A stretch of DNA of 28,125 nt, taken from a virus. The notes below the pieces were generated by a model. That model ran no database searches. It worked only from the letters and a program-made list of their open reading frames with translations, and was not told the DNA's origin. How positions within the stretch are numbered: position 1 is the stretch's first letter; each line of letters opens with the position of its first letter. Where the stretch lies: positions 1 to 28,125 of the IMG/VR virus record IMGVR_UViG_3300027906_000107, one strand, 5' to 3'. Shown piece by piece: positions 12,319 to 28,119 of this stretch. Made by a program: the position numbers and the translations under genes.

Positions 12319-12858
12319 ATGGGTGGAGGTGGAGGCAGAACTTCAACTGCAACTGCAGGGATAGATCCAAAACAATATCCTGAAGTAATGGAAATGCTAA
12401 AGGCATCTAGAGACAGAACAAGAGAACAATTAAGTGGTAAAAGAGATATTGTAGCTCCTTTAACACAACAACAGCGAAGTGCTTTAGGTTCTCAGGAAGC
12501 ATTAGCATATGATGCTCTTCATGGTAGGGGAATCTATGATGACAGTGAAATTAGAAAAAATGCTGCCAAGAATACCTTTGGATCTATGCAAAATCAATCA
12601 TCAGCTGGAAAATCTTTAGGCTCAGCTAGGTCTGATATGGCAGCATATAGAGCTTTGCATGATTTAACTGATAAACAGCATGACAAGAGAATAGCCCAAG
12701 CTAGGGCAGGTCTAACCATGTTAGGTGATGTAGGATCTACCTACCACAAAGCACATCAGCAAGGATTAGACTCTCAAGGAATGGCTTTAGATCAATTCTT
12801 TAATAGAATAAATCAAGGTGCTCAGAAAACAACAACAACCACAGGGGGAGGTAAGTAA
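12319..12858 (+). CDS. Virion-associated protein candidate (gp14-like position)
   Basis: A 179-aa protein beginning with a Gly run (MGGGGGRTSTATAG) and ending TTTTTGGGK. The body is helical, Ala/Gln/Arg-rich and hydrophilic (for example ARSDMAAYRALHDLTDKQHD). Gly-rich, Ala/Gln-rich helical proteins in this position, after tail tube B and before transglycosylase and giant ejection proteins, are often internal virion proteins of podoviruses, by synteny with T7 gp14. There is no direct sequence recognition. The ribosome site GGAG (12309-12312) precedes ATG 12319 and the stop overlaps the next start (TAATG). Confidence 0.45.
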   Translation: MGGGGGRTSTATAGIDPKQYPEVMEMLKASRDRTREQLSGKRDIVAPLTQQQRSALGSQEALAYDALHGRGIYDDSEIRKNAAKNTFGSMQNQSSAGKSLGSARSDMAAYRALHDLTDKQHDKRIAQARAGLTMLGDVGSTYHKAHQQGLDSQGMALDQFFNRINQGAQKTTTTTGGGK

Positions 12859-13778
12859 TGTATCCCAATGAAGAAAAAGATACGCTAATAAAGTTAGCAG
12901 AAATGTATAAGGGAAATCCTAATCCTACAGGTAATCCTACACAAGCACCCTCTGCACCTCAATTAGAAAAAGGTATGGGTGGTCAGATGATGGATATGGC
13001 TAAACAGAGAGCTATGACAGGTACTTTAGATAAAGGTCAAGAAGGCTTAATGGAAGGATTAGGAGCATTAACTGCTGGACCAACTACTGCACAAACTGCT
13101 GGATTAAATGCGTTAGTTCCAGCAACTGGTGGTCTATCTCCAGGAGCAGCACAAGCTGTTATGGGTAATACATCATTGGCAGGTACGACAGGTGCTCAGT
13201 TAGCTAGTGGAGCAGCAGGATCTGGTGCTATGGCAGGTATGGCTACAGCTATGCCATATGTAGGTGCTGGAATACTTGCTGGAAAAGCTCTAGGACTATT
13301 TAATAGTGGTGGTCATGTTGGTCCATTGTCTCCTCAATATAATGCCGAAGGAACTACTGGTTTTGAAGGTATAACAGGAGGAATGCCTAGTCTTATGAAA
13401 ATATTATTTGAACATAGAGCAAGAAATGAAGGAATAGATGGCGATATAAGAGCTGCCCAAGAAGCACAACGAAAACGAAATGAAATGTATGATGAATGGG
13501 ATTATCAGATGTATGGCAACCCAGGTTGGGGTGGAGGCTATCATAATACAGGATCTAGTGGTCCTATACCACCAACACCAATGCCAAGACCACTTCTAGG
13601 TGATATGAATGAACTTCAAGGTCCAATGGTAGATCCATGGGCAGGCTCTAAAGTACGACCAGCGATTGATGGTGGTATGCCTGTTCAACCTATGCCAATG
13701 CCTATGCCAAGACCTCGTCAGATAGATATGGACATGGAAACACTTAGGAATGAATATATAAAATCATTAGGAGAATAA
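12858..13778 (+). CDS. Virion protein candidate with hydrophobic Ala/Gly centre and Pro/Met tail
   Basis: A 306-aa protein. Residues about 60-150 are Ala/Gly/Thr-rich and hydrophobic, with a possible membrane-interacting segment (MAGMATAMPYVGAGILAGKA, about 124-143) leading into LFNSGGHVGPLS, a GG-x-V motif that recurs in phage tape-measure and ejection proteins. The C-terminal third is Pro/Met/Arg low-complexity (PTPMPRP, QPMPMPMPRPR). It is preceded by GGGGGAGGTAAG. Likely ejected or internal virion component by composition and context. No homologue is identified. Confidence 0.45.
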   Translation: MYPNEEKDTLIKLAEMYKGNPNPTGNPTQAPSAPQLEKGMGGQMMDMAKQRAMTGTLDKGQEGLMEGLGALTAGPTTAQTAGLNALVPATGGLSPGAAQAVMGNTSLAGTTGAQLASGAAGSGAMAGMATAMPYVGAGILAGKALGLFNSGGHVGPLSPQYNAEGTTGFEGITGGMPSLMKILFEHRARNEGIDGDIRAAQEAQRKRNEMYDEWDYQMYGNPGWGGGYHNTGSSGPIPPTPMPRPLLGDMNELQGPMVDPWAGSKVRPAIDGGMPVQPMPMPMPRPRQIDMDMETLRNEYIKSLGE

Positions 13779-13779
13779 T

Positions 13780-14814
13780 ATGGCAATACCATATCAACCA
13801 TCTTACCAAATACAACCGACACATGGTTTTAGATATGGAGCACAACCTCATGCAAATAATGTAGCTCCAACTTATGAAGTTCCAGCTTATGAAGCTCCTC
13901 CTTCAATCGATTCTTCTCCTACAAAAAATAAAACATTAGATAATAACAAAAGTGTAGTAAGTAACTTTGAAGGTAACGAAGATAGAGATAATAGTGCACT
14001 TTCAAATCAGTTGTCGTTAGATGCAGCACAAAGTGTGCAACCTAGAAATTACGATGCAGAAGAAAAGGGCATATTTAATCAAGGTCAAGTATATAGTCCT
14101 GAATTTTCATTAGGTGCTCTTATGCCTTTAGGAATGGGCAGTGGACCAGTATCCCCTACCACTGGATTTGGAAGTAAGGGTTCAATTAGTGGAAATACAG
14201 GTGGTATATTCGATGAGAAAGGTCGTAGCTATGATTCTATTACTGGTGCTTATAATCCTGAGTTTGCAAATGCAGCTTCATTTAGAAGCTATATGATGAC
14301 TGATCCATTAGGAACTAAAGAGAATCCGTTACCTAATATTCTAGGCGATAGAGATAATGCCTTTAAGTATGAAAGAGATAAAACAGGAAAGAGAACTAAC
14401 ACCTCAGCTTCTGGTTTTGAATTTGCTATGGCGAATAGTCCTTTAAATGAAGGTGGATTAACGGAAGCTGAAAAGAATCTTATAGCTAAGAAGGTAGGTG
14501 TTGATCAGGGTATAGCTGAGAGTTCATTAGAAAACGATGGTCCTACAATAAAGGCTATTAGAGGAGAGGGATATATTGATGGAGTAGCACCTAAAGGTTC
14601 TCAGTTTAGTAGTACAGGAAAATTTTCCACTGAAAAACGAAATCTTAATGATTTAGTAGGTAGCACTACAAATAACTCAAGTTATAATAGTGATGAAGAT
14701 AGTAGTTATGAGACTAGTGGATATTCAAGCAGTATAGATACAGGTGGTTTTAGCAAAGGTGGTCGTGTAGGTTATCTTAGTCAAGGTGGTCTTGTACAGG
14801 CTGGAGGTAAATAA
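13780..14814 (+). CDS. Virion protein candidate, disordered with C-terminal GG motif
   Basis: A 344-aa protein starting MAIPYQPSYQIQPTHGFRYG. Highly hydrophilic and Ser/Asn/Gly/Tyr-rich, with few hydrophobic core segments, suggesting a mostly extended protein. The end (FSKGGRVGYLSQGGLVQAGG) carries the GGxVxxxxxGG motif frequent in phage tape-measure and minor virion proteins. The next gene begins with the motif that normally follows it. GGAG precedes ATG 13780, and GGAGGTAAATAATAATG forms the junction to the next gene. Function not recognised; virion location inferred. Confidence 0.45.
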   Translation: MAIPYQPSYQIQPTHGFRYGAQPHANNVAPTYEVPAYEAPPSIDSSPTKNKTLDNNKSVVSNFEGNEDRDNSALSNQLSLDAAQSVQPRNYDAEEKGIFNQGQVYSPEFSLGALMPLGMGSGPVSPTTGFGSKGSISGNTGGIFDEKGRSYDSITGAYNPEFANAASFRSYMMTDPLGTKENPLPNILGDRDNAFKYERDKTGKRTNTSASGFEFAMANSPLNEGGLTEAEKNLIAKKVGVDQGIAESSLENDGPTIKAIRGEGYIDGVAPKGSQFSSTGKFSTEKRNLNDLVGSTTNNSSYNSDEDSSYETSGYSSSIDTGGFSKGGRVGYLSQGGLVQAGGK

Positions 14815-14816
14815 TA

Positions 14817-17447
14817 ATGTATAGTGATAAATTAAAAAAGTTTATATCAAAAGATAGATGGGGTAACTCATTAACATATGAGTTCGATGTTCCACCTATG
14901 GAAGATGCTATCCCACCAGCATTTCAACCTGGACCTAAAGGAACGGATACAGTTCCAGCATGGTTAACTCCAGGAGAGAATGTTGTTAATGCAGAAGCTT
15001 CTAGAAAGTTTCAGCCAATGATAGATAAGATGAATGAATATGGTAGACAAGTTCAGCAATCACAGGGTGGACCAATTCCTACTTATGAGTCAGATGGGGA
15101 TAAAATAGAAGGTAAGCCAGCAGGTAAAGATATTAGTATGAAAACAGTTACAGATAAGAAAGTTTATGAAACACCTGAAGGGTATAAAATGTCTGAACAA
15201 AGAATTACTGTCGGTGATAATACTCATGGATATGGTCATGTACCTAGTATATATGAGGGTATGATTTATGAGCCTAGAGATGTAAAAAGAATGGTATACG
15301 AGGGAACAGTACCTCCTCCTGATATGAGATTTAATACTCGATCTGAGGCAGACCATTATGCAAAACTTAATAGTCAAAATTTATTAAACTTCAGAGATGA
15401 TGCTGCTTATGCTTATCCTATGTATAATAATACAGGTGGTGTTGTTATTGATGATGCCTTATTAGATGCTCTTATGAAGGTAGAATCAGGTGGAGATGTA
15501 AATGCAGAATCAGAGGCAGGGGCTATTGGTCCATATCAAATTATGGATGCAACAGCACAACAGCCTGGATATGGAGTAACTCCAATAGCATTAGCAGATA
15601 GAACTGATCCTACTAAATCTAGAGAATTTGCTAGACAGTATCTTCAGGGTATCGCAAGAAAACACCCTGAATTTAATAGAGACCAAGTGTTACAAGCCTA
15701 TCATTCAGGTGCTGGTAATGTCCTTAAATCAATAGGTGGTGTAGAAGACCTAGGACCACGAGGTCAAGCTTATGCTGGAAAGGTAAATAATGCTATGAAA
15801 AAAGCTGATAGTGGATGGTCATTCCCTAGTTTTATTTCAACAGCTTCAGCATCTACACTAGATAATGAGAATAAGGAAGTACCTGAAGAAAGTAGTTGGT
15901 TAGATTCAGTAAAGAAAAAGTTTGATGAAACATTTCCTTCAATAGCTAATGATCCTACAATACAAAAAGCAAGAATTAAAACTGAAAGAAAGGAAGCTAA
16001 AGAAGATGCAACTATTGCTAAAAAAGGTACTCTCTTTTTAGACGGATTAGACGATGCTGAAGAAGAATTAAATGAATTTAAAAAAGAAGTAAAGAAAAAG
16101 GGTTTTAATGTAACACAACTTGATGTTGATAAATTAAAAGACTTAACAAAGAAAAGAGATGATCTTAAACTTATCTATGATGAAAAAGCTAAAAAGCTTG
16201 AAGAAGTTAATAAGCCTACTGATTTTGAAAAAGCTGCTAAAGAAAAAATAGATACGATATTAGGTACAAAAGTAGCTAAAGATGTAGTTGAAGCTACAAG
16301 CATAGTAGGGGATGACCCTAGTGGTGGAACTGAAGTTGCTGAGATGGCTAAGCAAGATGAAAATACTTTAATGAATAAAGGATTAGCATTAGGTAAAGAA
16401 GCCTTAAGTACAGTTGGTGGTTGGTTTGAATCAATGTTTAAGGAAATGTTTAGTGGACCTGAGTTAGCTCGTATGGCAGTAATATATGCTGGATCTAGAG
16501 CTATGGGATATAGTCATGGTGGTTCTTTAAATTATTCTATGAAAAATTATCTCACAAGAGTAGATAGTGCTCTCGCCCAGCGAAAGAAGGATGGTGCTAG
16601 TAAAAGGTTTATTGATAATTATGAATCTGGCTCGATTCAAAAGTGGATAGAGTCTGGTGATATGAATGATCTTAAATCTAGAGGAACTAAATCACCTATT
16701 AAAATGAGTGGTAAGGGTTATCTCAGAGGTTATGGACAAGTTACTTTATTTGATAATAAAGACGGAGTTCAATTAGCTCAGGTAGGAGGTAAATATATTG
16801 AAGTATCTAAACTACCAATAGAACAATGGGATGATAAGACTCATGGTGATGTTGCAGTTTCTAATAGATTTAATGACATTGAGAAAAACTTTTTATCTGA
16901 TTTAAATGAAGGATTAGATAAAGATGATGATGAGTTTGTACCAAGAGAACTTACTGGTGCAAGAGTAAATAAAATCTATAGAGATATATTAAGAAGAAAT
17001 GGTGTATCACTAAATGAAGCTCCTCAAACAGAAATAGCAATGCAAGAAGCTATTAAAGATTATTATACTGCTATAAAACAATGGAAGAAAGATGGTAAAC
17101 CTGAAAAAGGAAAACCTCAATCTGTAGAAGCATTTATTAATAGAAAAATATTTACACCACTTACAGGTGTTCCTCAAGCTGCTATTGCTGGTGCTTCTGT
17201 TTCTAACCTTAATAAGCTTTCTAATATGATAAGAGACGATATGGATAATAAAAATCCACAATCTACTAAGTATAGAGAGGAGTTTAAAGATAGTTGGCAA
17301 GCAGTATTAGATGCTTATAGAAAATTACCTAAAGAAGAACAAGACAAATATGTTAGACAAGGAGCAGATACTGAAGGACATACTGCATTTACGCTTTTCT
17401 TTCAAGATAAAGGTATAGATGGTATTGAAGCAATATTAAAAGGCTAA
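14817..17447 (+). CDS. Virion protein with lytic transglycosylase (SLT) domain
   Basis: An 876-aa protein, probably ejected to open the cell wall at infection. Residues 38-76 contain GTDTVPAWLTPGENVVNAEA, a motif common in phage tape-measure/minor virion proteins. Residues about 210-328 are an SLT lytic transglycosylase: catalytic Glu223 in MKVESGG, GAIGPYQIM (235-243) and AYHSGAGNV (294-302). It cleaves the glycan strand between MurNAc and GlcNAc. A charged helical region follows (about 380-470), then FSGPELARMAVIYAGSRAMG (about 543-562) and a helical C-terminus. In T7 the transglycosylase is the N-terminus of the 1318-aa gp16; here it is a separate, earlier gene. Start ATG 14817 lies two bases after the previous stop. 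Confidence 0.8.
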   Translation: MYSDKLKKFISKDRWGNSLTYEFDVPPMEDAIPPAFQPGPKGTDTVPAWLTPGENVVNAEASRKFQPMIDKMNEYGRQVQQSQGGPIPTYESDGDKIEGKPAGKDISMKTVTDKKVYETPEGYKMSEQRITVGDNTHGYGHVPSIYEGMIYEPRDVKRMVYEGTVPPPDMRFNTRSEADHYAKLNSQNLLNFRDDAAYAYPMYNNTGGVVIDDALLDALMKVESGGDVNAESEAGAIGPYQIMDATAQQPGYGVTPIALADRTDPTKSREFARQYLQGIARKHPEFNRDQVLQAYHSGAGNVLKSIGGVEDLGPRGQAYAGKVNNAMKKADSGWSFPSFISTASASTLDNENKEVPEESSWLDSVKKKFDETFPSIANDPTIQKARIKTERKEAKEDATIAKKGTLFLDGLDDAEEELNEFKKEVKKKGFNVTQLDVDKLKDLTKKRDDLKLIYDEKAKKLEEVNKPTDFEKAAKEKIDTILGTKVAKDVVEATSIVGDDPSGGTEVAEMAKQDENTLMNKGLALGKEALSTVGGWFESMFKEMFSGPELARMAVIYAGSRAMGYSHGGSLNYSMKNYLTRVDSALAQRKKDGASKRFIDNYESGSIQKWIESGDMNDLKSRGTKSPIKMSGKGYLRGYGQVTLFDNKDGVQLAQVGGKYIEVSKLPIEQWDDKTHGDVAVSNRFNDIEKNFLSDLNEGLDKDDDEFVPRELTGARVNKIYRDILRRNGVSLNEAPQTEIAMQEAIKDYYTAIKQWKKDGKPEKGKPQSVEAFINRKIFTPLTGVPQAAIAGASVSNLNKLSNMIRDDMDNKNPQSTKYREEFKDSWQAVLDAYRKLPKEEQDKYVRQGADTEGHTAFTLFFQDKGIDGIEAILKG

Positions 17448-17521: not shown

Positions 17522-20500
17522 ATGGCAGACATAACAACAGATGATGGTAGACAATTTAATCTAATAGATGCCGATACTATTACAGATGGATCTACTAATT
17601 ATCGTATAGAAGGCTATAATGCTCCTGAAGTATCTAAAGTACTTCCTGATGAAGAAAAAGGATTACGATTTATAAGAGGTCAATTAGGTGGTGATGAAAC
17701 TACTAATGCAGTAAAAAGGATTATTGAATCTGGTGGATTTAATAAAATAGAAGATTCAGGCTATACTGATTCCTATGGTCGTAAACGAATAAGAATTAAA
17801 AATGAATTTGGTCAAGACTTAACTAATACCTTATATGAGTCAGGTGCTATTGATATTAATTTATTTACAGATAAAGAGGGAATAGATGCTGTAGATAGAG
17901 GTCGATTACAAAAGGAATTAACTGGTAAAAGAGTACATGAAGAAATAGTTAATGACGAATTAAGTGGTATTAAGACTAAACCAGTTACATTTAAAGATAT
18001 AGCAAGTAACGAAAAAGATTATGCTAATGCAGTAATGGAAGTTGTAGCTGAACAACGAGGTCTTGATTTAACTAATGATGATGATATAAGAAAGGCAATA
18101 GAAATAACTCAATCAGGAGTTTATGATACTCGTAGTGTTCCCTTCGATGGTGTTGCTTTTAGAAAGCTTGATAGAACAGTAGAGAATGTAGCTAAGAATC
18201 AATTTGGTGCTGCGTGGAATCAAGGTTGGCAGGGAATGTCTACTGGTTTAGCAGGCTTTTCCGAATTGTTTGGTGTTGGTTTAGGTAGTGATACAATAAA
18301 AAACTGGGGAGCAGATAAAGTTGATATTGCTAAAAGAGATTTATTAGAATTACCAGAATTAAAGAACATAGACTATAGAGATGTAGATGGTTTATGGGAT
18401 GGTATTCAATTTATGACTAACAACTTAGCTATGTCTGCACCTTATCTTATTACATTAATAGGTGGTACAGCATTAGCTCCATTTACAGGAGGAGCATCTG
18501 CTTATTTGGCATATGGTTCTGTTGGTGGTTCTTATGCAGGTCAGGTTTGGAATGATATTAAAGGTCCAAAAGGTAGACCTGAAGCAGCTGGTTCTTTATT
18601 AGCTGGAATAGGAATGGCTACCCTTGATAGATTAGGTCTTATGGGTATATTAAAGCCTTCTCAAATATTACATAAACAAGGTCGATTAGAAGTAGCTAAA
18701 GAATTAAGAAGATTAAACCCTAAACTGGGTTATAGTGAAGCATTAGACAAAATAAGAGATGCAACCAAAGCAGAATTAAAAGAAGTTATTAAGGGTATAG
18801 GTAACTTTTCAGCAGCACATATAAATAATAGTCAGGTTCTTCGTGGATTACTTAAGGCTTCTGGAAGAGGTTTTGCTGCCGAGAGTATAACTGAAGCAGC
18901 ACAAGAGGGATTAGGTTACTTATCATCTAAAACTATGTCTGAGGGTGGTCTCAAAGAAAACTTTAATCCTAATGAATTTCAAAATCTATTATTACAATCA
19001 GCTGTTGCTGGTGGTTCTCTTGGTTTTGGATTTGGTGGAGCTGGATCGCTAATAGATTATGGTGATAGATTCGCTATGAAGAAAGGTCTTGAGAGAGGTA
19101 AAGTAGATAAGCTTAGCGAAGAAGAGAGGGCTGCTCAGGAACTAGGGTATCAAGGAAAAATAGATGATTTTAAAGAAGAATTAAGATCAGACACAGAAAA
19201 TATTAAACCTTCTTCAGGTGGAAGTAGGACAGCTAATATGGCTAAAGATGGTCAGATATCTGAGGGTGGTATATGGAATAAGATTAAAAATGTACCAACT
19301 TATTTTCCTAGGGTATATAGAGCATCTTCAATGATAGCATATCCTGTTGATTTACTTCGAAGATCAGAATCAGTAAGAAAACTAGCAGCATTAGTTGGTA
19401 TGACTACTGGAAAAATGTATTCAGGAATTGATGTTCAAGGTGCTGAATCTCAAACTAGATCTTATTTAAAAGAAGTTATAAATCCTAAAAGAGTATTTAA
19501 AAGATTTGGGTTAAGAGATAGTGTTAGTAATTCCCAAAAGATATCTGATATGATAAGAAGATATATGAATGGAGATACTGATGGTATGTCAGATAAAGAG
19601 ATATCAGCAATCCAAGCTACAATATTAGAGCTAAATGAATTTTCGGATAAGGAATATCTACTTAAGAATAATACTTATAAATCACAAGGTAAAAATAGAA
19701 AGGACTTAGATAAATTAAGTAATTACTGGTTAACTCATCAGAATTGGGATTGGTCAAAGGTAAGACAAAATAGAACTGAATGGTATTCTTGGATGAGAAA
19801 GCATACAAAGATGGATACAAAAGAATTAGATCAGTTGTATGATAAGATATCTAATAACGAAGATGCTACAGATTTTTCTGTTGTAGAAGGTGTTGAATAC
19901 GTTCCTGGAAAGATTAAAGGTTCTACAGATAATTTATCTTCCCTACCTGGATTTGAAAAATTTGCTAATACTAATATATTACAAAATATGCTTACTCTTG
20001 CAGATCAAACTTCTAAATATGTTGCATATACAGATTACTTTGGAGCTGGAGGTAAATACATTGATAAGCTTTTAGAAGATATGTTAAATAAAGATAACTT
20101 AACTAAAGAAGAAGTTGAGCATGTTGCCTTACATACTAAAAATATTATTGATGCAGGTACAGGTAACTATAAAAGAATTAAGAGCAGGAAGTTAGCTGCA
20201 GTACAAAGGTCAGCTACTTTCTTTGCTACATTAATCGGATTACCTCTTTCAGCTATAAGCTCTTTTCCAGAATTTGTAATGATGATCTATCAGGCAAAAG
20301 ATTTTGCAGAAGTTAGAGCTGGAATATTGAGTAGTATCAAAGAAATGAAATCTATTTTCAAAAAGATAGTTACTATGAAAGTACACCCTGCAATAGCTGA
20401 TGTTCCCTTAGGTAATATCGATACAGAATCACAAGTTAGATTAACCAGAGGTGGCTTATTTAATGATGATGCTGCTATAGCTACACGATATGGGTTAGGC

Positions 20501-21481
20501 GAATCTGATATCAGTAAAGCTTGGTGGCAAAAGCAATTCTTTAAATGGACAGGTATAGCTGGAGTAACACAATTACAAAGAGCAATGGCAGCATCTTTAG
20601 TTACTAATTTTGTTGGAGATAGAATAAAAATATTATCTGCAAAGCCTAAAGGAGTTGATTACAATCAAGATCAATTAGATATTTATAGACAGCTAGTTGG
20701 ACTAGGTGTTGATGTAGATAAACTCATAACCCTCTATCGTAAGTATAATAGTCCTATAATGTTTGATTATTTATTTAATGAAGATATAGTTAGAAAACAA
20801 AATAAGTTAGAGGCTGATGCAGATAGAGACTTAAGAGATATAGAAAATGAAATGAATAATGCAACTTGGCATTTTGTAAATGATAGAATACAAAATCCAC
20901 AAGCATTTAATAGACCTTTATTTTATCAAGATCCACATTTTCAAATGTTTGTACAATTTAATGGATTTATATCTACCTTTACTTCTAATGTTGTTCCTAA
21001 GCTTTGGAATGATTACATTAGGAAAGGTAGTCCACGAATGAAGTATAATACATTTGCATTAATAGTTACTATGATGGCAGTCGGTGGTGCATCTCAATGG
21101 TTAAAAGACTTTATTAAGTTTGGGGGTAGTACTCCTTATTTATCTGATGCACAGTTACTTCAAAGAGCAATACAATCATCTGGTTTATTAGGTACAGGTG
21201 AAAGATTATTACAAGGAGCTTTACCTCTTTATAGAAGTAGAGATGAAAATTTTCTTGATAGACTATTCGGTGAAACAGTAGGTGGTGCTCCAACAATTAG
21301 AGCATTAGGTTCTGGAATAAAAGCAATAGGCTCTTTAGGTGAAGGAGATACTGATAGAGCAGTTGGTCATGCTACTAAACTATTACCTGGAATAGGTCCA
21401 ATAACACCTGTAAGAAATATAATAAATGATGCGATACATGGAAAACCAATAGATCCGTATCCATTTGTAAAGGAGAATTAA
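17522..21481 (+). CDS. Giant ejection-type virion protein with N-terminal SNase-like domain
   Basis: A 1319-aa protein. Residues about 1-125 look like a staphylococcal nuclease (thermonuclease) domain: DADT (16-19), YRIEGYNAPE (27-36) and YGRKRIRI (85-92). By alignment to S. aureus nuclease, Asp18=Asp21, Arg28=Arg35, Glu36=Glu43 and Arg87=Arg87 are kept, while Asp40 is Asn33. The remainder resembles T7 gp16-like ejection proteins in size and in having scattered hydrophobic helices (about 300-340, 896-924, 1174-1195) within a helical chain, suited to forming a trans-envelope channel. AGGAG precedes ATG 17522; it is first in the operon behind the 17466 promoter candidate and is followed one base later by the RNA polymerase-like gene. 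The nuclease could act on host DNA at entry or be purely structural. Confidence 0.7.
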   Translation: MADITTDDGRQFNLIDADTITDGSTNYRIEGYNAPEVSKVLPDEEKGLRFIRGQLGGDETTNAVKRIIESGGFNKIEDSGYTDSYGRKRIRIKNEFGQDLTNTLYESGAIDINLFTDKEGIDAVDRGRLQKELTGKRVHEEIVNDELSGIKTKPVTFKDIASNEKDYANAVMEVVAEQRGLDLTNDDDIRKAIEITQSGVYDTRSVPFDGVAFRKLDRTVENVAKNQFGAAWNQGWQGMSTGLAGFSELFGVGLGSDTIKNWGADKVDIAKRDLLELPELKNIDYRDVDGLWDGIQFMTNNLAMSAPYLITLIGGTALAPFTGGASAYLAYGSVGGSYAGQVWNDIKGPKGRPEAAGSLLAGIGMATLDRLGLMGILKPSQILHKQGRLEVAKELRRLNPKLGYSEALDKIRDATKAELKEVIKGIGNFSAAHINNSQVLRGLLKASGRGFAAESITEAAQEGLGYLSSKTMSEGGLKENFNPNEFQNLLLQSAVAGGSLGFGFGGAGSLIDYGDRFAMKKGLERGKVDKLSEEERAAQELGYQGKIDDFKEELRSDTENIKPSSGGSRTANMAKDGQISEGGIWNKIKNVPTYFPRVYRASSMIAYPVDLLRRSESVRKLAALVGMTTGKMYSGIDVQGAESQTRSYLKEVINPKRVFKRFGLRDSVSNSQKISDMIRRYMNGDTDGMSDKEISAIQATILELNEFSDKEYLLKNNTYKSQGKNRKDLDKLSNYWLTHQNWDWSKVRQNRTEWYSWMRKHTKMDTKELDQLYDKISNNEDATDFSVVEGVEYVPGKIKGSTDNLSSLPGFEKFANTNILQNMLTLADQTSKYVAYTDYFGAGGKYIDKLLEDMLNKDNLTKEEVEHVALHTKNIIDAGTGNYKRIKSRKLAAVQRSATFFATLIGLPLSAISSFPEFVMMIYQAKDFAEVRAGILSSIKEMKSIFKKIVTMKVHPAIADVPLGNIDTESQVRLTRGGLFNDDAAIATRYGLGESDISKAWWQKQFFKWTGIAGVTQLQRAMAASLVTNFVGDRIKILSAKPKGVDYNQDQLDIYRQLVGLGVDVDKLITLYRKYNSPIMFDYLFNEDIVRKQNKLEADADRDLRDIENEMNNATWHFVNDRIQNPQAFNRPLFYQDPHFQMFVQFNGFISTFTSNVVPKLWNDYIRKGSPRMKYNTFALIVTMMAVGGASQWLKDFIKFGGSTPYLSDAQLLQRAIQSSGLLGTGERLLQGALPLYRSRDENFLDRLFGETVGGAPTIRALGSGIKAIGSLGEGDTDRAVGHATKLLPGIGPITPVRNIINDAIHGKPIDPYPFVKEN

Positions 21482-21482
21482 T

Positions 21483-24400
21483 ATGGGAAAATTAACAGCT
21501 AGTAGAGATTTTTATGCTAGGAAACAAGAGCGAATAGCTGATGCACAGAAAAAACTTCAAGGTAAAAAAATAGCTGGTGATACTACTACTACTAGTGGAG
21601 CTACTAATGTAGCCGATGTTGCCGACAACCTCGCTGAAATAAAAATAAAGACACCTACTGAACAAATACAAGATCGAATACCTGTAGTAGAAGAAGGATC
21701 TACTGTACCACTCGGAACATATGAAGGTAGAGCAGAGATATTAGGTAAGATAGGCGAAGAGATTGATCCTGTTGCAACCCAAAAGAAAGCATTAGAATCA
21801 ATAGGAGGAACTACAGTTGTAGAATCAGATGCTAAAGGCACGGATTTATATGGTGATGTTAGTACTGTTCCTGGACAAAAGAAAGTAGACTTATATAAAG
21901 AACAGTTAGCAGATGAAGCTCAAATGAGAATACCTCAAGATGAGCAAAGTGCAAAGCTCCTTGGTGAAATGGTAGATATAATTGCTTCAGAGGATTATGG
22001 AAGAAAACAAACATCAGAAGATGAAGAAACACCTCAGAGTTTATTTGGTGATATGTTAGATTTTGCTGCTAAAACAGTACAAACTGATCAAACAAAATTT
22101 AATTTATTTGGTAAGTTAGTAGATACCAGTACAGCTGGAAGCGAAGTAGATATTAATCCAATGAGTTTCTTACAAAAAAATTCAGATGAAATAAGTTATG
22201 CTCTTAAAGGAGTAGATAAACTTGATATGCTAGAAGATAGATCAGATATTAATTCTGGTATAAGACCTGAAGTAGGTCGTGCTGCCCTTATCGCTACTAT
22301 ATTAGAGTTAACTCATAGATTAAATCAACAAGCATCAGAAACTGATAAAGAGTTAAATGAAAGACAATATGAAAATGCAATGGATAGAATTAATATTGGT
22401 AAAGCTATTGGTTCAAGAATGGAAAGGCTATTATATCCAAGTGCAGATATTGATCCTAATAAACCATATACAGGTGAGAGTGAAGGCTTTGGTTATAAAT
22501 ATAGAACAACAGAAAGAGAAAGATCATTAGTAGGTCAAGCCTTTGCTCAAGGATTTGCTGATAGTCCTAATTTTAGTTTTATGGAATCACATTTTGTTAA
22601 GGCTAAAGGGGAAGATAAAGGTAAATGGACTTTTAGACCAGATAGAAAAGGAGATCAACAGCTATGGGCAATAAGAAGAGCCTTAAGAGATGTTTTAGGT
22701 TTAAAAGATTATACTAAACCTGTCTCTCTTGTACCTACTACTAAGGAAGGAAGACTAATAGGAGAAGGAGCATTTGACCAGAAGCAAATAACTTCTCAGG
22801 TATTACCAAATGAATTACCTCCGATAGCAAAGAAAGCTATCCAAAAGTTAGGTAGAGTAGGTCATACTACATCACCTCATAAGATACTTTTAATGTCAGG
22901 TATGTTAAATTCTAATAACCCTTTCTTGATGAAAGTAAGGAAGGCTGATACTGCTTATTATCAAAAGAAAAAGAAAGAATTCCTAGATGAATATACAGCT
23001 AGAGCAGCAAATGATCCTGATTTTATACCTCAAGAGTTAGGAGACTTTGATACATTTGAACAGGCAGCTAATAAGCAAACCATAGAGATAATGGAAAGAC
23101 ATAAAGAGATGCGACAGTATACTGTGATAGATGCTATAAATAGAATGGATCGTTCTTTCTTTTATGGTTATACTGCGATTAATAATTCTTCTCGACTTAT
23201 GATAACTAATCAAGAGTTAAATTATCAAGCAGATAAGGTAGCTAGATTTTTAGTTGATGGAGCTAAACCAGTTATCTTTAAGAAGAATACTAATTCAGAT
23301 TTAGAAATGTCGTCAGAGGGTTTTATGGGGGTTATTGCGAGGTGTGTAATACCTGAAGCTGGAAAGATGCCACCTGAAAGACAAGTAGCTTTATTATTAC
23401 AGGATTTAAGCGATCCTGCAGGTAGTAAATACTTAAAACTCGGTAGAGAATTACTAGAGTATACTCAAAATAATAGTGGTTATATAGGAGCTGTAAGAGG
23501 TACTAAGCAAGCGAAAGATTACGCAGCTACCTATGAAGGTCTTAGGTCGGTAACTCCTTTAGAGCTTAGTCCAGAGTTAACTGAATACCTTCAAGATATG
23601 GGTAAAGATGAATTCTATTTTGCGATGGATGCATTACACGAATTAGCAAGATGGGATGCCACACCTACTGGGGCTGAATTTAAAACTAGAGTTAAAGCTG
23701 AGGCAGATGGTAATGCCAATGGAGCTACTATATTAGCAACCCAGATGGGTGTTAAAAATATTATGGAAAAAGGAGGAGTATTATATAGTAAAAAGAGAAT
23801 AAAATACTTAGCCCAAGGTCTTTCTCATTCTGAAATAGAAGAAATTGAAAAGGATATTAGAGATGATGTATATACTCATATGCAAGCATTACCTGAAATA
23901 TCTAAAGATCCTAAAAAATGGGATATGATTCTTCAACAAATAAAAAAGGCTGGCAAAGTAAAAGAGTTAATGAAACAGCCTATTATGACTTCTATTTATG
24001 GTAAAGACCCTAGATTTCATAGTGATACTGCAAGAAAATTTATTGTAGATAATCCAGAATATTTTGCTTCATTTGATAGTCAAGCTCAAGCTGAAAAAGA
24101 ACTAACAAAGATGTTAGAACACGCATTAGTAACAGGGTTAGGAGGTGCATTAGAACACGCAGCAATAGCAAAAAGATTAGGAAGAGCATTTAACTTTGCT
24201 AATAGAATAGCAATGGTTGAAGGTCCAAATGGATTTATGAGTCAAGCTGGAGGTTACGAGTATATTGAGGATACTCCAGAGCCAACTGCCTTTGATTTTG
24301 TTATAGAAGGTATGACAGATGAAAATACTGGTCAAATAATAAGACGAAAGATGGATATAACCACTATGCAGAGGGTTGCTAGTGCTCAGGCAAGGGCAGG

Positions 24401-25160
24401 TGGAGTTAAGCTTGATACAGGTTTTAAGAGTATTACTGATAGTGGAAGTAAACTTAGAAATCAAATTGCAGTTAATAGTACTCAAAATATAGATGCCTCT
24501 GTAGCCCAACAAACAACTGTAGATATTCTTACTGAAGATAAAGATGCAACCTTTATGCAGATATATGATGCATTTATGGGTGATGCTGCTTCATTTGGAA
24601 AGATTAGAAAACAAGCTAATAAAAACTTTGACGAAATAAATTCGTCATATGAATTAGTTCAAAAAGAAATTGAATCATTTGAAAGATTAATTAAAGAAAT
24701 AGGTGAAGATGTAGGGAAAAAGAAAGCAAGAGGGGAAATGTATGATATTGGATTGGAAGGTGATTATAGGTCTTTAGGAGACTTTGTATTAAATCCAAGT
24801 AGAATTATTATGAGGGATATGCCTGAGAATACTCCAGCTCAACAAGATGCAAAAGAAAAAGCTTTAAGAGATGTTAAATCTCTAAAATTAAGGGGTATTG
24901 CTAGAGACTTCGGAATTTCTTTACCAGCAGGTAAAAGAGAAGTCCGAGGTAAGGATATGAAGGCATATGATTTTAACGAACAAAAGAAGATATTAATACC
25001 CCCTGATTTATATTTAGAATTTATTAAATACGCATTTAAAGCTTTAAATATTGAAAGTGATTTGAGAAATTTCTTATCCACTATAAGGAAAAGAAAATCT
25101 GATTTATACTTTAATGAAATACTTCCAGAAAAGAGATGGGCTGGTATGCAGTACTCCTAG
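21483..25160 (+). CDS. Second single-subunit RNA polymerase, candidate virion (N4 vRNAP-like) enzyme
   Basis: A 1225-aa protein with single-subunit RNA polymerase motifs in the right order. T/DxxGR-like: NNSSRLMITNQELNYQADKV (567-586), Arg571, aligning with the same region of the phage's other polymerase. Motif A: ADGNANGATILATQMG, Asp742 (T7 Asp537). Motif B: KQPIMTSIYG, Lys831 and Tyr839 (T7 KRSVMTLAYG, Lys631, Tyr639). Motif C: FMQIYDAF, Asp1029 (T7 HDSF, Asp812), with NIDASVAQQTTV upstream matching the pre-motif-C helix; His is replaced by Tyr1028. Residues 1-200 are hydrophilic and probably disordered. The N4 virion polymerase is about 3500 aa with a roughly 1100-aa catalytic core; this protein is close to that core. 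Position at the end of the ejection-protein operon suggests packaging and injection. RNA polymerase fold is well supported by eye; virion location is inferred. Confidence 0.8.
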   Translation: MGKLTASRDFYARKQERIADAQKKLQGKKIAGDTTTTSGATNVADVADNLAEIKIKTPTEQIQDRIPVVEEGSTVPLGTYEGRAEILGKIGEEIDPVATQKKALESIGGTTVVESDAKGTDLYGDVSTVPGQKKVDLYKEQLADEAQMRIPQDEQSAKLLGEMVDIIASEDYGRKQTSEDEETPQSLFGDMLDFAAKTVQTDQTKFNLFGKLVDTSTAGSEVDINPMSFLQKNSDEISYALKGVDKLDMLEDRSDINSGIRPEVGRAALIATILELTHRLNQQASETDKELNERQYENAMDRINIGKAIGSRMERLLYPSADIDPNKPYTGESEGFGYKYRTTERERSLVGQAFAQGFADSPNFSFMESHFVKAKGEDKGKWTFRPDRKGDQQLWAIRRALRDVLGLKDYTKPVSLVPTTKEGRLIGEGAFDQKQITSQVLPNELPPIAKKAIQKLGRVGHTTSPHKILLMSGMLNSNNPFLMKVRKADTAYYQKKKKEFLDEYTARAANDPDFIPQELGDFDTFEQAANKQTIEIMERHKEMRQYTVIDAINRMDRSFFYGYTAINNSSRLMITNQELNYQADKVARFLVDGAKPVIFKKNTNSDLEMSSEGFMGVIARCVIPEAGKMPPERQVALLLQDLSDPAGSKYLKLGRELLEYTQNNSGYIGAVRGTKQAKDYAATYEGLRSVTPLELSPELTEYLQDMGKDEFYFAMDALHELARWDATPTGAEFKTRVKAEADGNANGATILATQMGVKNIMEKGGVLYSKKRIKYLAQGLSHSEIEEIEKDIRDDVYTHMQALPEISKDPKKWDMILQQIKKAGKVKELMKQPIMTSIYGKDPRFHSDTARKFIVDNPEYFASFDSQAQAEKELTKMLEHALVTGLGGALEHAAIAKRLGRAFNFANRIAMVEGPNGFMSQAGGYEYIEDTPEPTAFDFVIEGMTDENTGQIIRRKMDITTMQRVASAQARAGGVKLDTGFKSITDSGSKLRNQIAVNSTQNIDASVAQQTTVDILTEDKDATFMQIYDAFMGDAASFGKIRKQANKNFDEINSSYELVQKEIESFERLIKEIGEDVGKKKARGEMYDIGLEGDYRSLGDFVLNPSRIIMRDMPENTPAQQDAKEKALRDVKSLKLRGIARDFGISLPAGKREVRGKDMKAYDFNEQKKILIPPDLYLEFIKYAFKALNIESDLRNFLSTIRKRKSDLYFNEILPEKRWAGMQYS

Positions 25161-25166
25161 AGTACT
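25150..25166. terminator. Hairpin at convergent gene ends, candidate bidirectional terminator
   Basis: AGTACTC-CTA-GAGTACT is a perfect 7-bp inverted repeat with a 3-nt loop. The stem can be extended by GGGCT (25138-25142) with AGCCC (25167-25171) across a 7-nt bulge. It contains CTAG (25157-25160), which provides the stop codons of both converging genes. No T-tract follows on either side, so an intrinsic terminator is possible but not proven. Confidence 0.5.
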
Positions 25167-25405
25167 AGCCCATTAGCCTTAGCTGCTTGCATAGCTTTAG
25201 ATCTCTGTTTATCAGCCATGTGTCTAGCTTTGCTTTCACTCATGCCTTCTGAAACATATCCAGCCATATTTTGAGCATGAACCATATCTAACATAGCTCT
25301 ATTAAACCCTTCTTTCTCTATTAAATCTTCAGATATACCGAATTCAGTGAATTCAAGGTCTTTAAAGTTTTGTCCTGTCTGTGCTAACCAATTTTTATCT
25401 GCCAT
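25157..25405 (-). CDS. Small hypothetical protein downstream of the RNA polymerase
   Basis: An 82-aa helical, Met/Ala/Lys-rich protein (MADKNWLAQTGQNFKDLEF start; KARHMADKQRSKAMQAAKA near the end). The ribosome site AAGGAGG overlaps the polymerase stop codon (TAAGGAGG on the minus strand), so it is co-transcribed and likely well translated right after the polymerase. Its stop overlaps the stop of the convergent plus-strand gene within CTAG. No family is recognised. By position it could be an early host-takeover or polymerase-modulating protein, which is inference only. Confidence 0.65.
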   Translation of the reverse strand: MADKNWLAQTGQNFKDLEFTEFGISEDLIEKEGFNRAMLDMVHAQNMAGYVSEGMSESKARHMADKQRSKAMQAAKANGLVL

Positions 25406-25415
25406 AGTAACCTCC

Positions 25416-27533
25416 TTAGCAAAAGAAGTAATCCGATTTGGATACTTCGGTTATATTTAATCCTCCTATGAGTGGTTGAACCCCACTATATCCTCTTCCG
25501 AAGGGTATACTCTCATAAAAGTTTTCTTTATCATACATCTCTATGAATACTTCTCTGGCTTTCACCATAAGATCTTCTATATCAGTTGCATGACCATTAA
25601 ATGAATCGTGTACTGCTGCGAAATCATTATCCCATTTAGATACTACCAGAGCTAAGTGAGCAGCATCTTTACTGTGAACGAAGTTAGGACTAATCCCACA
25701 CATAAACCCTCGTCTATCTGGTATATCTGTCTTCTCTCTTATCACATGCTTAAATCTTATCTCACCTTCTGGTGTATTAAATCCATAACAATCTATCTTA
25801 GCAGGTCTAGTTCTGTAACATTCGTATATTACAGGGAAGCCTGATTCTGTCTCCCATTCAATTCCTCTACCTCTATCTGTACCATAAGTACGATACCAAT
25901 TAAGTATCTCTTGATCGGCAAGTCGCTGTAGGTATCGCATAGTATCTAAAGGTCCAGGGCATACATCTTGTATTGCTCGTATAACTTGATGAGCTAACTC
26001 ATCGCAATCCCATGTATTAATATTATAATCACTGGTATAACCATACTGATAACAATCGCTATACATAGACTCAGACATTTTCTTTTGTCCACAGCTATAA
26101 GCTCTAGTCATAGCTCCTCTCTTAGCGATACCCTTCCTTATATGCTTCATTGGTATATTTCTTTCTGCAAACCAATCAGGCATCCTCTCACATACTCTTT
26201 TAGCTACTCTTACATAGAAATCATTTGGTATTTCAGTAGGTATAAGACCAACTAATTCTCCAGTTAACCTATCCTTAGACATAGCACCTAAATGTTGCCA
26301 ACCATTATTAGCACCATCAATAGGCACAGGTAATTGAATCCTGTAATCGTCTTTATCCCTCCAAAACTTAAACCACTCTATACAACAAGCAAGGAAAGCT
26401 ATTTTCTTTTCGGCATCTTCAGATATGATCTTCATCTCACCTAGCTCAAGTATACTATCCATATTCTTTTGAGTCCACATAGCTCTGTCTTCTAGTGTCA
26501 TTTTATCTACAGATATACTATCTAATTCTTCTTTCTCAAGAGCCTCTTTATAATCAGTAGTTACCCATTCAGGTATCTGGTCAATAGGGTATGACTGATT
26601 AAATGAACATGAAGTATGTACTGCTAACCAGAAGTTCGCTGTCTCATCGAAGGGTTTACCTTTGGCGAATAGTAATTGACTACGAGCTATATCAGCACCT
26701 TGAAAGTTAAAGAATGGCTCACTATAGTATAGTCTACCTCTATAGTCTGCATCGACATAGAAACTAAATTCTTTATCTAACCATTTCTCTGCAGCAGCCA
26801 TGACCTCTTTAATCTCTCTATTCTTTGAAGCCTGTCTTTGATACATCTTATCATTCTCTTTCTTATCATCACCATCGTATATTTCATGCTTAACAAACAT
26901 AGCCCAATGATTATTAATAGCTTCATGTACATCTTTATTAACTATAAATCTAGTGGACTGTAAGTTATTAATAGCTTTTACGAATGGCTTATCAAGACAC
27001 TTAAGGAACTTATATTCTTTAGACTTATCCCAAGTCTTAATAATAGGTCTACCATTATTCTGAAACAGAGTAGTTACTAAGGGAATAGGTGTAGCACTGA
27101 TACAGGTAGTCTTACCTGAAAATGCATCTAACTCACCCCATTTATCTGTAGCATGAATTGTAACTGGCTTTCTACTTCTCATATGACCTACTGATATTGT
27201 TATATAACCACACATAACAAAACCTTCAATGACTAAATCACCTACTCTCACATGGTCTCTGAAGTTTACATTATTACTATCCCACCCCTCAACTATATAC
27301 TTGCCTATAGCCATTGAAGCTTGAGTAATAGCTGTCTCGCCTTCTACTTTATTTCGTTTAAAACATCTCTGTATAACTTTTCTTGCATGATTTATTATAT
27401 CATCAATTAAAAAGTCTAGCATATCGACCCCATCGGAGTCAATCATACGCATTAGTTGGAGGTTACGTCTAGGCTTTACACCTAAATCTTCACCTCTTAT
27501 TTTCTCTAGTAAATATTTTCTTATGTCTTGCAT
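25416..27533 (-). CDS. T7-like single-subunit RNA polymerase
   Basis: A 705-aa DNA-directed RNA polymerase that would transcribe phage genes from phage-specific promoters. Motifs: DYRGRLYY with Arg267 (T7 Arg425), motif A PIDGANNGWQHLGAM with Asp406 (T7 Asp537), motif B AKRGAMTRAYSCG with Lys471 and Tyr479 (T7 Lys631, Tyr639), motif C AVHDSF with Asp643 (T7 Asp812). ESGFPVIYECYRTRP (563-577) and the following residues correspond to the promoter specificity loop. The chain ends DYFFC, comparable to the T7 C-terminal FAFA foot. T7 RNAP is 883 aa; about 158 residues are missing before the DxxGR motif, so the N-terminal domain is much reduced, nearer the combined size of the two N4 RNAPII subunits. 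Tyr479 is followed by Ser rather than the usual Gly. AGAGAGGA precedes ATG 27533; a sigma70 promoter lies just upstream. Confidence 0.93.
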   Translation of the reverse strand: MQDIRKYLLEKIRGEDLGVKPRRNLQLMRMIDSDGVDMLDFLIDDIINHARKVIQRCFKRNKVEGETAITQASMAIGKYIVEGWDSNNVNFRDHVRVGDLVIEGFVMCGYITISVGHMRSRKPVTIHATDKWGELDAFSGKTTCISATPIPLVTTLFQNNGRPIIKTWDKSKEYKFLKCLDKPFVKAINNLQSTRFIVNKDVHEAINNHWAMFVKHEIYDGDDKKENDKMYQRQASKNREIKEVMAAAEKWLDKEFSFYVDADYRGRLYYSEPFFNFQGADIARSQLLFAKGKPFDETANFWLAVHTSCSFNQSYPIDQIPEWVTTDYKEALEKEELDSISVDKMTLEDRAMWTQKNMDSILELGEMKIISEDAEKKIAFLACCIEWFKFWRDKDDYRIQLPVPIDGANNGWQHLGAMSKDRLTGELVGLIPTEIPNDFYVRVAKRVCERMPDWFAERNIPMKHIRKGIAKRGAMTRAYSCGQKKMSESMYSDCYQYGYTSDYNINTWDCDELAHQVIRAIQDVCPGPLDTMRYLQRLADQEILNWYRTYGTDRGRGIEWETESGFPVIYECYRTRPAKIDCYGFNTPEGEIRFKHVIREKTDIPDRRGFMCGISPNFVHSKDAAHLALVVSKWDNDFAAVHDSFNGHATDIEDLMVKAREVFIEMYDKENFYESIPFGRGYSGVQPLIGGLNITEVSKSDYFFC

Positions 27534-27560: not shown

Positions 27561-27589
27561 ATTATAACATATTTTAATTTATTTCGCAA
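27561..27589 (-). promoter_or_regulatory. Host sigma70-type early promoter for the RNA polymerase gene
   Basis: On the minus strand: TTGCGA (27589-27584), a 17-nt spacer, and TATAAT (27566-27561), with TGT giving an extended -10 (TGTTATAAT). The -35 lies inside the last codons of the dCMP deaminase gene (CTT GCG AAA TAA). The -10 is 27 nt from the polymerase ATG at 27533, leaving a leader of about 20 nt. The perfect -10, ideal spacing and location before the phage polymerase fit an early promoter read by host RNA polymerase. Confidence 0.85.
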
Positions 27590-28004
27590 GTACTTTTATA
27601 TTTATTTTTTCATTAAGGATTTTGAATCCTTCCATATCTTTCTCATACATTCGTCCAACCACAACATGGCTGATGCCAGACTGTAGGATAAGCTTAGCAC
27701 ACTCGATGCAAGGCGACATCGTACAGTAAAGGGTAGCACCCTCGCCATTGGTACTAGACTTAGCGAGCTTACATATAGCATTAGCTTCAGCATGAATAAC
27801 AGTACGTAGTGTAGCACCAGTTGTAGGACTCTTGCAACTATTATCAAACCCAGAAGGAGTACCATTCCAACCCATTGAAATGATATTACCATCCTTGACA
27901 ATAACTGCTCCAACTTTCGTATCAACATCATATGACATCTCCCCTACTCGTTTAGCGATATCCATATATAGGTTATCGTATCTCTTTTTCTTTCTCTCGT
28001 TCAT
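27579..28004 (-). CDS. dCMP deaminase (deoxycytidylate deaminase)
   Basis: A 141-aa zinc enzyme converting dCMP to dUMP, feeding dTTP synthesis, fitting an AT-rich phage. Zinc/catalytic motifs: HAEANA (His71, Glu73) and SPCIECAK (Cys99, Cys102). GWNGTPSGFDNSC (45-57) is the substrate-binding signature of dCMP deaminases. I prefer ATG 28004 (MNERKKKRYDNLY) over ATG 28022, since AAAGGA stands 9 nt before 28004 and nothing comparable precedes 28022. It lies upstream of the RNA polymerase on the same strand and its last codons contain the polymerase -35 box. It complements the ribonucleotide reductase encoded on the other strand. Confidence 0.9.
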   Translation of the reverse strand: MNERKKKRYDNLYMDIAKRVGEMSYDVDTKVGAVIVKDGNIISMGWNGTPSGFDNSCKSPTTGATLRTVIHAEANAICKLAKSSTNGEGATLYCTMSPCIECAKLILQSGISHVVVGRMYEKDMEGFKILNEKINIKVLAK

Positions 28005-28119
28005 TACCCTGATTCCTTTCATAAATCATTAGGGCTTCGTGGAGTGGTGGTATTCGACCTCCACCCTTTGAAGCATTATTCTGTATCTTTATCAGTTGTC
28101 TTCTTATCTTCTTGGACAT
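27973..28119 (-). CDS. Small hypothetical basic protein, possibly partial
   Basis: On the minus strand ATG 28119 opens a 48-aa frame (MSKKIRRQLIKIQNNASKGG, then RIPPLHEALMIYERNQ) ending at TAA 27975-27973. It overlaps the dCMP deaminase start by about 32 nt. The frame is open to the window edge (28125), so a more upstream start is possible and the N-terminus cannot be fixed. Lys/Arg-rich ends and a plausible helical middle; no family recognised. Codon choice is similar to its neighbours, and otherwise this 120-bp stretch would be non-coding. Confidence 0.4.
   Translation of the reverse strand: MSKKIRRQLIKIQNNASKGGGRIPPLHEALMIYERNQGNEREKEKEIR

Follow-up and report, generated by a model that had tools for sequence, protein, structure and literature searches.

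In bacteriophage N4, a virion RNA polymerase (vRNAP) is ejected, transcribes the early genes from hairpin promoters and remains membrane-bound (PMC4496689, PMC12633501). It consists of an N-terminal domain (NTD; residues 1-906), an RNA polymerase (RNAP) domain (residues 998-2103) and a C-terminal domain (CTD) that inhibits transcription (PMC12633501), and it is called cysteine-free in the literature (PMC8515928). Such vRNAPs have been described as large and unique to the Schitoviridae (PMC12633501, PMC7650795). Here we report on a protein of 1225 amino acids (aa) whose open reading frame (ORF) occupies positions 21483 to 25160 (plus strand, ATG start) of a 28,125-nucleotide stretch of viral DNA, referred to below as the window (IMG/VR record IMGVR_UViG_3300027906_000107, positions 1 to 28,125). 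On the basis of PHROGs, alignments, sequence profiles, AlphaFold2 and Foldseek, we annotate the protein and its relatives (here, family V) as putative compact vRNAPs of the N4 type. We hold it to be quite probable that the 1225-aa protein is a catalytically competent, core-sized single-subunit RNAP (ssRNAP) of the N4 virion type, which is packaged, injected and transcribes the early genes and then the gene for a 705-aa RNAP encoded nearby.

A few other systems come close. For Alteromonas phage R22Y, a 2,083-aa vRNAP and two RNA polymerase genes are reported (PMC11705849). Like family V, the vRNAPs of R22Y and PT11-V19 are shorter than usual and are encoded by the final gene of the late operon; unlike family V, they are larger and the phage is called a schitovirus. 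A 2023 paper proposed putative vRNAPs in StenR_269 and the Zobellviridae from their size, lack of cysteine and helical content (PMC10747016), and these resemble family V as large cysteine-free proteins of a podovirus late operon. An iterated HMM (hidden Markov model) search of IMG/VR with the N4 vRNAP collected 3,786 “N4-vRNAP-associated” proteins and 287 contigs with only that hallmark (PMC10654107); family V members may be among those 3,786 proteins. In the literature that we searched, we found no description of a compact vRNAP.

Catalytic motifs, profiles and predicted fold

The 1225-aa protein carries the motifs of an ssRNAP in the ssRNAP order, with an upstream Arg, the motif A Asp, the motif B Lys and Tyr-Gly and the motif C Asp. 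A preliminary description of the window, made from the letters and a list of ORFs, had named Arg571, Asp742, Lys831, Tyr839 and Asp1029 together with the motifs around them, and all of these are present in the ORF at the numbers it gave. Arg571 (codon at 23193-23195, plus strand, as for the codons below) is the equivalent of T7 Arg425 and of the N4 GR motif and opens a conserved R...LNYQ..K..R block, which we aligned with vGRMQM..YNPQSAKLVR of N4 and RGRVYAVSMFNPQGND of T7; set side by side, the block reads R...LNYQADKVAR in family V, R...YNPQSAKLVR in N4 and DxRGR...FNPQGND in T7. Asp742 (codon at 23706-23708) lies in motif A, EADGNANG, which aligns with motif A of T7 and with that of N4 (EADGVTNG). 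Motif B extends from Lys831 to Tyr839 (KQPIMTSIY, 23973-23999) and is followed by Gly840; the vRNAP of Vibrio phage pVco-5 has KGPLMTSIYG at this place. Asp1029 (codon at 24567-24569) belongs to motif C, QIYDAF, which reads HDA in a sister subclade and FDG in N4, so that the 1225-aa protein has YD where N4 has FD and T7 has HD.

These residues are conserved across 30 aligned family V homologues, whose identity to the window copy is 15-44%. Asp742, Gly840 and Asp1029 are kept in 30/30 and Arg571 and Tyr839 in 29/30, the exceptions being a gap in a truncated contig (Arg571) and a Phe (Tyr839). The 22 full-length or nearly full-length rows have either Lys (18) or Arg (4) at position 831. A truncated gene or frameshift artefact was ruled out by the intact ORF and by full-length relatives of about 1156-1329 aa.

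PHROGs identified residues 706-1070 as phrog_414, “RNA polymerase” (E value = 4.7e-8), and one relative (L019) matched phrog_2206, “virion RNA polymerase” (E value = 3.9e-11). We constructed an N4-core profile from the vRNAP cores of eight Schitoviridae and a T7-type profile from six enzymes and used them to search 748 ORFs from the window and from its relatives. The N4-core HMM matched the window ORF with an E value of 3.6e-10 and the relatives with values down to 1.1e-16; the T7-type HMM reached only 0.0035 on the window ORF. Profile-profile comparison with hhalign gave 99.3% (E value = 3.6e-20) for family V against N4 and 93.3% (E value = 2.8e-7) for family V against T7, and at most 2.6% for family V against four control proteins. 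An initial family-against-family comparison on narrow alignments had been weak (2.8%, E value = 0.016) with the motifs in register, a weakness that wider core alignments fixed.

Through synteny, we also located a counterpart in Roseobacter phage CRP-7, gp33 (QBQ72826.1). This protein resembles family V in its locus, its length (1235 aa) and its lack of any cysteine, and it has a cultured host; it differs from the family V members in an identity of at most 18%, in having DA in motif A and in having Arg at the Lys831 position. Compared by hhalign with family V, gp33 gave 94.8% (E value = 4.9e-8). When a family V profile built without CRP-7 was run on 19 phage loci, the vRNAPs of pVco-5 (E value = 4.3e-7) and of Pseudoalteromonas phage pYD6-A (E value = 8.7e-6) came first and gp33 followed (E value = 0.0081). 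The vRNAP of V19, the relative of R22Y, was not detectably close by the family V profile (E value = 1) and was matched by the N4 profile (E value = 1.1e-7). A family V-type vRNAP in the Zobellviridae was considered as well and was unsupported: the family V profile found nothing significant in VpV262, PA11, CRP-4 and SIO1, and there is thus no sign that the proteins proposed there belong to family V.

In a tree of the cores, family V (support 93/86), the N4 vRNAPs (99/99) and the T7-type enzymes (100/100) formed three separate groups. By sequence, then, family V is closer to the N4 vRNAPs than to T7 RNAP, and the N4 kinship that the preliminary description had proposed on the grounds of family knowledge has now been tested and agrees with gene position and lack of cysteine. 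It is likely that family V and the N4 vRNAPs share descent to the exclusion of T7, although this sisterhood is unproved because the tree is unrooted.

The predicted structure points the same way as to the type of enzyme. An AlphaFold2 model of residues 250-1225, built from family V relatives, had a predicted local distance difference test score (pLDDT) of 78.1 and a predicted template modeling score (pTM) of 0.77. In this model, Asp1029 (model residue 780) is flanked by two beta strands, motif A comes after a strand and motif B is helical. Foldseek matched the model to yeast mitochondrial RNAP Rpo41 (E value = 2.2e-15) and T7 RNAP (E value = 1.1e-13) in the PDB and to phage RNAPs, several Schitoviridae vRNAPs among them, in BFVD (best E value = 3.6e-15), and the model shows the palm and fingers of the right-hand fold, its motif C Asp being placed in a beta turn. 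Judging from sequence and model together, the 1225-aa protein is almost certainly a single-subunit RNA polymerase, its activity being predicted. The preliminary description had seen a second ssRNAP where the ejection operon ends and had pointed to profile comparison and structure prediction as checks; both yielded RNA polymerase matches, in PHROGs, the N4-core HMM and hhalign for the one and in AlphaFold2 and Foldseek for the other, and the conserved catalytic residues agree. Its expectation that the protein would otherwise pass as hypothetical stood only in part. Pfam gave no hmmscan match (RNA_pol at 11.9 bits against a cut-off of 22) and gp33 of CRP-7 is annotated as hypothetical, but PHROGs recognizes the 1225-aa protein, so the polymerase is hidden from general annotation only.

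Family V thus compares as follows with its two reference types. With N4 gp50 it shares the R...LNPQ..K..R block, motif A (E.DG..NG), motif B (K.P....YG), the replacement of the His of motif C, the lack of cysteine and the place as last, convergent gene of the late or ejection operon, and N4-type enzymes are statistically its nearest family. At 1225 aa it has about one third of the length of an N4-type vRNAP (about 3500 aa) and roughly the size of the N4 mini-vRNAP, that is, of the RNAP domain (998-2103) alone, which leaves no room for the N4 NTD (1-906) or the autoinhibitory CTD. It is paired with the one-chain 705-aa T7-like RNAP, whereas N4 has the two-subunit RNAPII; the Schitoviridae trait of three RNAP genes, for a vRNAP of about 3500 aa and the two-subunit RNAPII, is absent here. 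T7-type RNAPs (those of the Autographiviridae and the 705-aa neighbor) agree with family V in the single-subunit fold and in the order of motifs A, B and C. DxRGR is missing from family V, and by profile the two are farther apart than family V and the N4 type. The two enzymes of the locus also differ from each other, family V being nearly cysteine-free and encoded in the virion operon and the 705-aa RNAP being cysteine-rich and encoded in the other operon.

Gene position, cysteine content and proposed role

In the window and in its relatives, the family V gene closes the ejection operon and converges with another operon. The vRNAP gene has the same place, last in the late operon and convergent, in N4 (gp50), R7L, pYD6-A, LUZ7, pVco-5 and D491. 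Cysteine is almost absent from family V, with one in 34,949 residues over 30 proteins. There is none in eight Schitoviridae vRNAPs, which measure 3095-3616 aa (the retrieved stretch cuts two of them short), and the neighboring proteins of the 1319-aa type have 0 or 1 each; the 705-aa RNAPs of the same genomes have 14-16 per protein. Cysteine content is an indirect line of evidence but a quantitative one. A third indication, besides position and cysteine, is that a related contig (G001, see below) has a portal in the PHROG of the N4 portal, though its capsid protein belongs to a different one. Together with the kinship to N4, these features suggest that the family V protein is quite probably packaged and ejected.

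We propose that the polymerase would be made late, as the product of the final gene of the ejection operon, and packaged alongside a virion protein with an SLT domain and a 1319-aa protein encoded upstream of it. It would then enter the cell by ejection, either before the DNA or together with it, and would there use the early promoters, transcribing early genes that include the gene for the 705-aa T7-like RNAP, and the latter enzyme would transcribe the middle and late genes. Early transcription by the family V polymerase seems probable to us, by analogy with N4. Since these phages carry both a vRNAP-type and a T7-like RNAP, they may transcribe their genes without the host enzyme. It is about as likely as not, in our view, that a widespread phage group outside the Schitoviridae runs infection on two ssRNAPs of its own, with a natural full-length mini-vRNAP being injected for the early genes and all other genes falling to a T7-like enzyme. 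If this is true, host RNA polymerase would be unneeded, and packaging, ejection and control would all be possible without the N4 NTD and CTD.

Several observations weigh against this reading, and they are considered here together with the alternatives that they touch. The gene sits in a late operon, as the gene of a late-acting enzyme also might, and the protein might be an active second RNA polymerase that stays unpackaged, being synthesized in the course of infection to transcribe a late class of genes. The search for early promoters would fit such an enzyme. In seven early regions of CRP-7 and related contigs, hairpins of the N4 type (stem of 6 or more, 3-nucleotide loop) showed no excess above shuffles and none was shared, nor did we find repeated promoter-like motifs in the early regions of these genomes; a count of the T7-like ACTATAG gave nothing clear. 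Promoter recognition may thus differ from that of N4, or the motifs may be too degenerate. The near-total lack of cysteine, however, is common to ejected proteins and N4 vRNAPs and not to the cytoplasmic 705-aa RNAP, the gene adjoins ejection protein genes as in N4, and the sequence kin are polymerases known to be packaged, all of which makes an unpackaged late enzyme unlikely. The sole cysteine of family V does belong to the window copy.

The remaining points concern the polymerase itself. Sequence searches of the PDB with the 1225-aa protein gave no match, and a whole-protein profile met no PDB RNAP; because these searches and Pfam were blank, polymerase identity rests on PHROGs, the profile-profile work and the predicted fold. 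The N4 mini-vRNAP was absent from the best 50 Foldseek PDB matches listed, and so structure alone favors neither N4 nor T7. Arg replaces the motif B Lys831 in one subclade (L013, L022 and L036) and in gp33 of CRP-7, where motif A has in addition lost its Gly. Such changes, and the strong divergence of the 1225-aa protein from known RNAPs, would suit a structural ejection protein of RNA polymerase ancestry that has lost polymerization. We regard this as very unlikely, given that both catalytic Asp residues (30/30) and Arg571 and Tyr839 (29/30) are kept in homologues down to 15% identity, a sign that selection still acts on the active site. The position of the ribose-selecting T7 His784 is occupied by Gln, and the palm is common to family A DNA polymerases, as might be seen in a palm-fold polymerase of another activity such as priming or DNA synthesis. 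But N4-type vRNAPs differ at that position, with Gly in N4 and Gln in pVco-5, Tyr839, of the T7 Tyr639 type, is retained, the named structure and profile matches are RNA polymerases, and these phages encode a DNA polymerase and a primase of their own, so that a different activity is extremely improbable.

At one third of the N4 length, and in phages that have a T7-like RNAP and a capsid protein from another family, the compact version sets the catalytic core apart from the N4 NTD and CTD, two domains that are being studied for their parts in membrane anchoring and autoinhibition. It also offers a smaller enzyme for studying the passage of a folded polymerase through a phage tail. For the cultured CRP-7, the proposal predicts an early transcription program without dependence on host RNAP. 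A further suggestion is that genes annotated as “hypothetical” at the end of ejection operons be checked for polymerases, with cysteine depletion as a cheap pointer.

Distribution of family V and neighboring genes

A scan of IMG/VR with the neighboring 705-aa RNAP yielded 45 contigs. By tblastn, relatives of the 1225-aa protein lay beside the RNAP in 28/45, and by profile search family V was present in 33/33 contigs that extend past the 705-aa RNAP gene by more than about 1.9 kb. A later scan with the alignment added nine further loci, every one with the RNAP too. Two single-sequence pattern scans of viral contigs found no relatives, a pattern scan of 84,980 bacterial and archaeal genomes found no family V relative, and the 1225-aa protein had no tblastn match in 50,697 phage records. 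The most divergent member on a viral contig (L111:3910-7896, plus strand) is a cysteine-free protein of 1329 aa beside a T7-like RNAP (family V profile, E value = 1.4e-20). The paper on CRP-7 names just one RNAP, ORF30 (PMC6918029). The window stops short of the portal and capsid genes, for which we used a related 57.8-kb contig (G001): its portal belongs to phrog_1216, the PHROG of the N4 portal, and its capsid protein to phrog_1328, versus phrog_1357 in N4.

In the window, the ejection block starts with three cysteine-free proteins of 179, 306 and 344 aa (12319-14814, plus strand), which had no significant PHROGs family match. They are followed on the same strand by the 876-aa virion protein with its SLT transglycosylase domain (14817-17447; PF01464, E value = 8.3e-15; phrog_2013/342; 0 cysteines) and by the cysteine-free 1319-aa ejection/virion protein (17522-21481; phrog_6958, virion structural protein, E value = 3.2e-25), whose stop ends 1 base before the ATG of the 1225-aa ORF, the final gene of the block. 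Relatives of the 1319-aa protein lie upstream of the family V gene in other contigs as well. They also occur at the end of the structural block in Vibrio phage Phriendly (L058:11437-14196, minus strand) and Pseudomonas phage BroderSalsa (L059:10793-13912, plus strand), in which the profile found no family V polymerase. The converging minus-strand block holds the 705-aa T7-like RNAP (25416-27533; PF00940, E value = 2.5e-52; 16 cysteines). Between both polymerase genes lies an 82-aa ORF (25157-25405, minus strand) that overlaps the end of the 1225-aa ORF by 4 bases and had no match in family searches.

Just upstream of the 705-aa RNAP gene, the window encodes a 147-aa dCMP (deoxycytidine monophosphate) deaminase (27579-28022, minus strand; phrog_174, E value = 1.5e-51), and a ribonucleotide reductase gene (6371-8113, plus strand) sits within the structural/late operon. 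In CRP-7, an adenosylcobalamin-dependent reductase (L048:25553-28171, minus strand) is annotated in two pieces, gp44 and gp46, and gp45, the ORF between them, could be an intron, an intein or a homing gene. The early region of CRP-7 also contains a Hammerhead_II ribozyme (L067:570-633, plus strand; Rfam, 50.1 bits against a gathering threshold of 37, E value = 1.5e-7), directly upstream of and overlapping the start of gp02.

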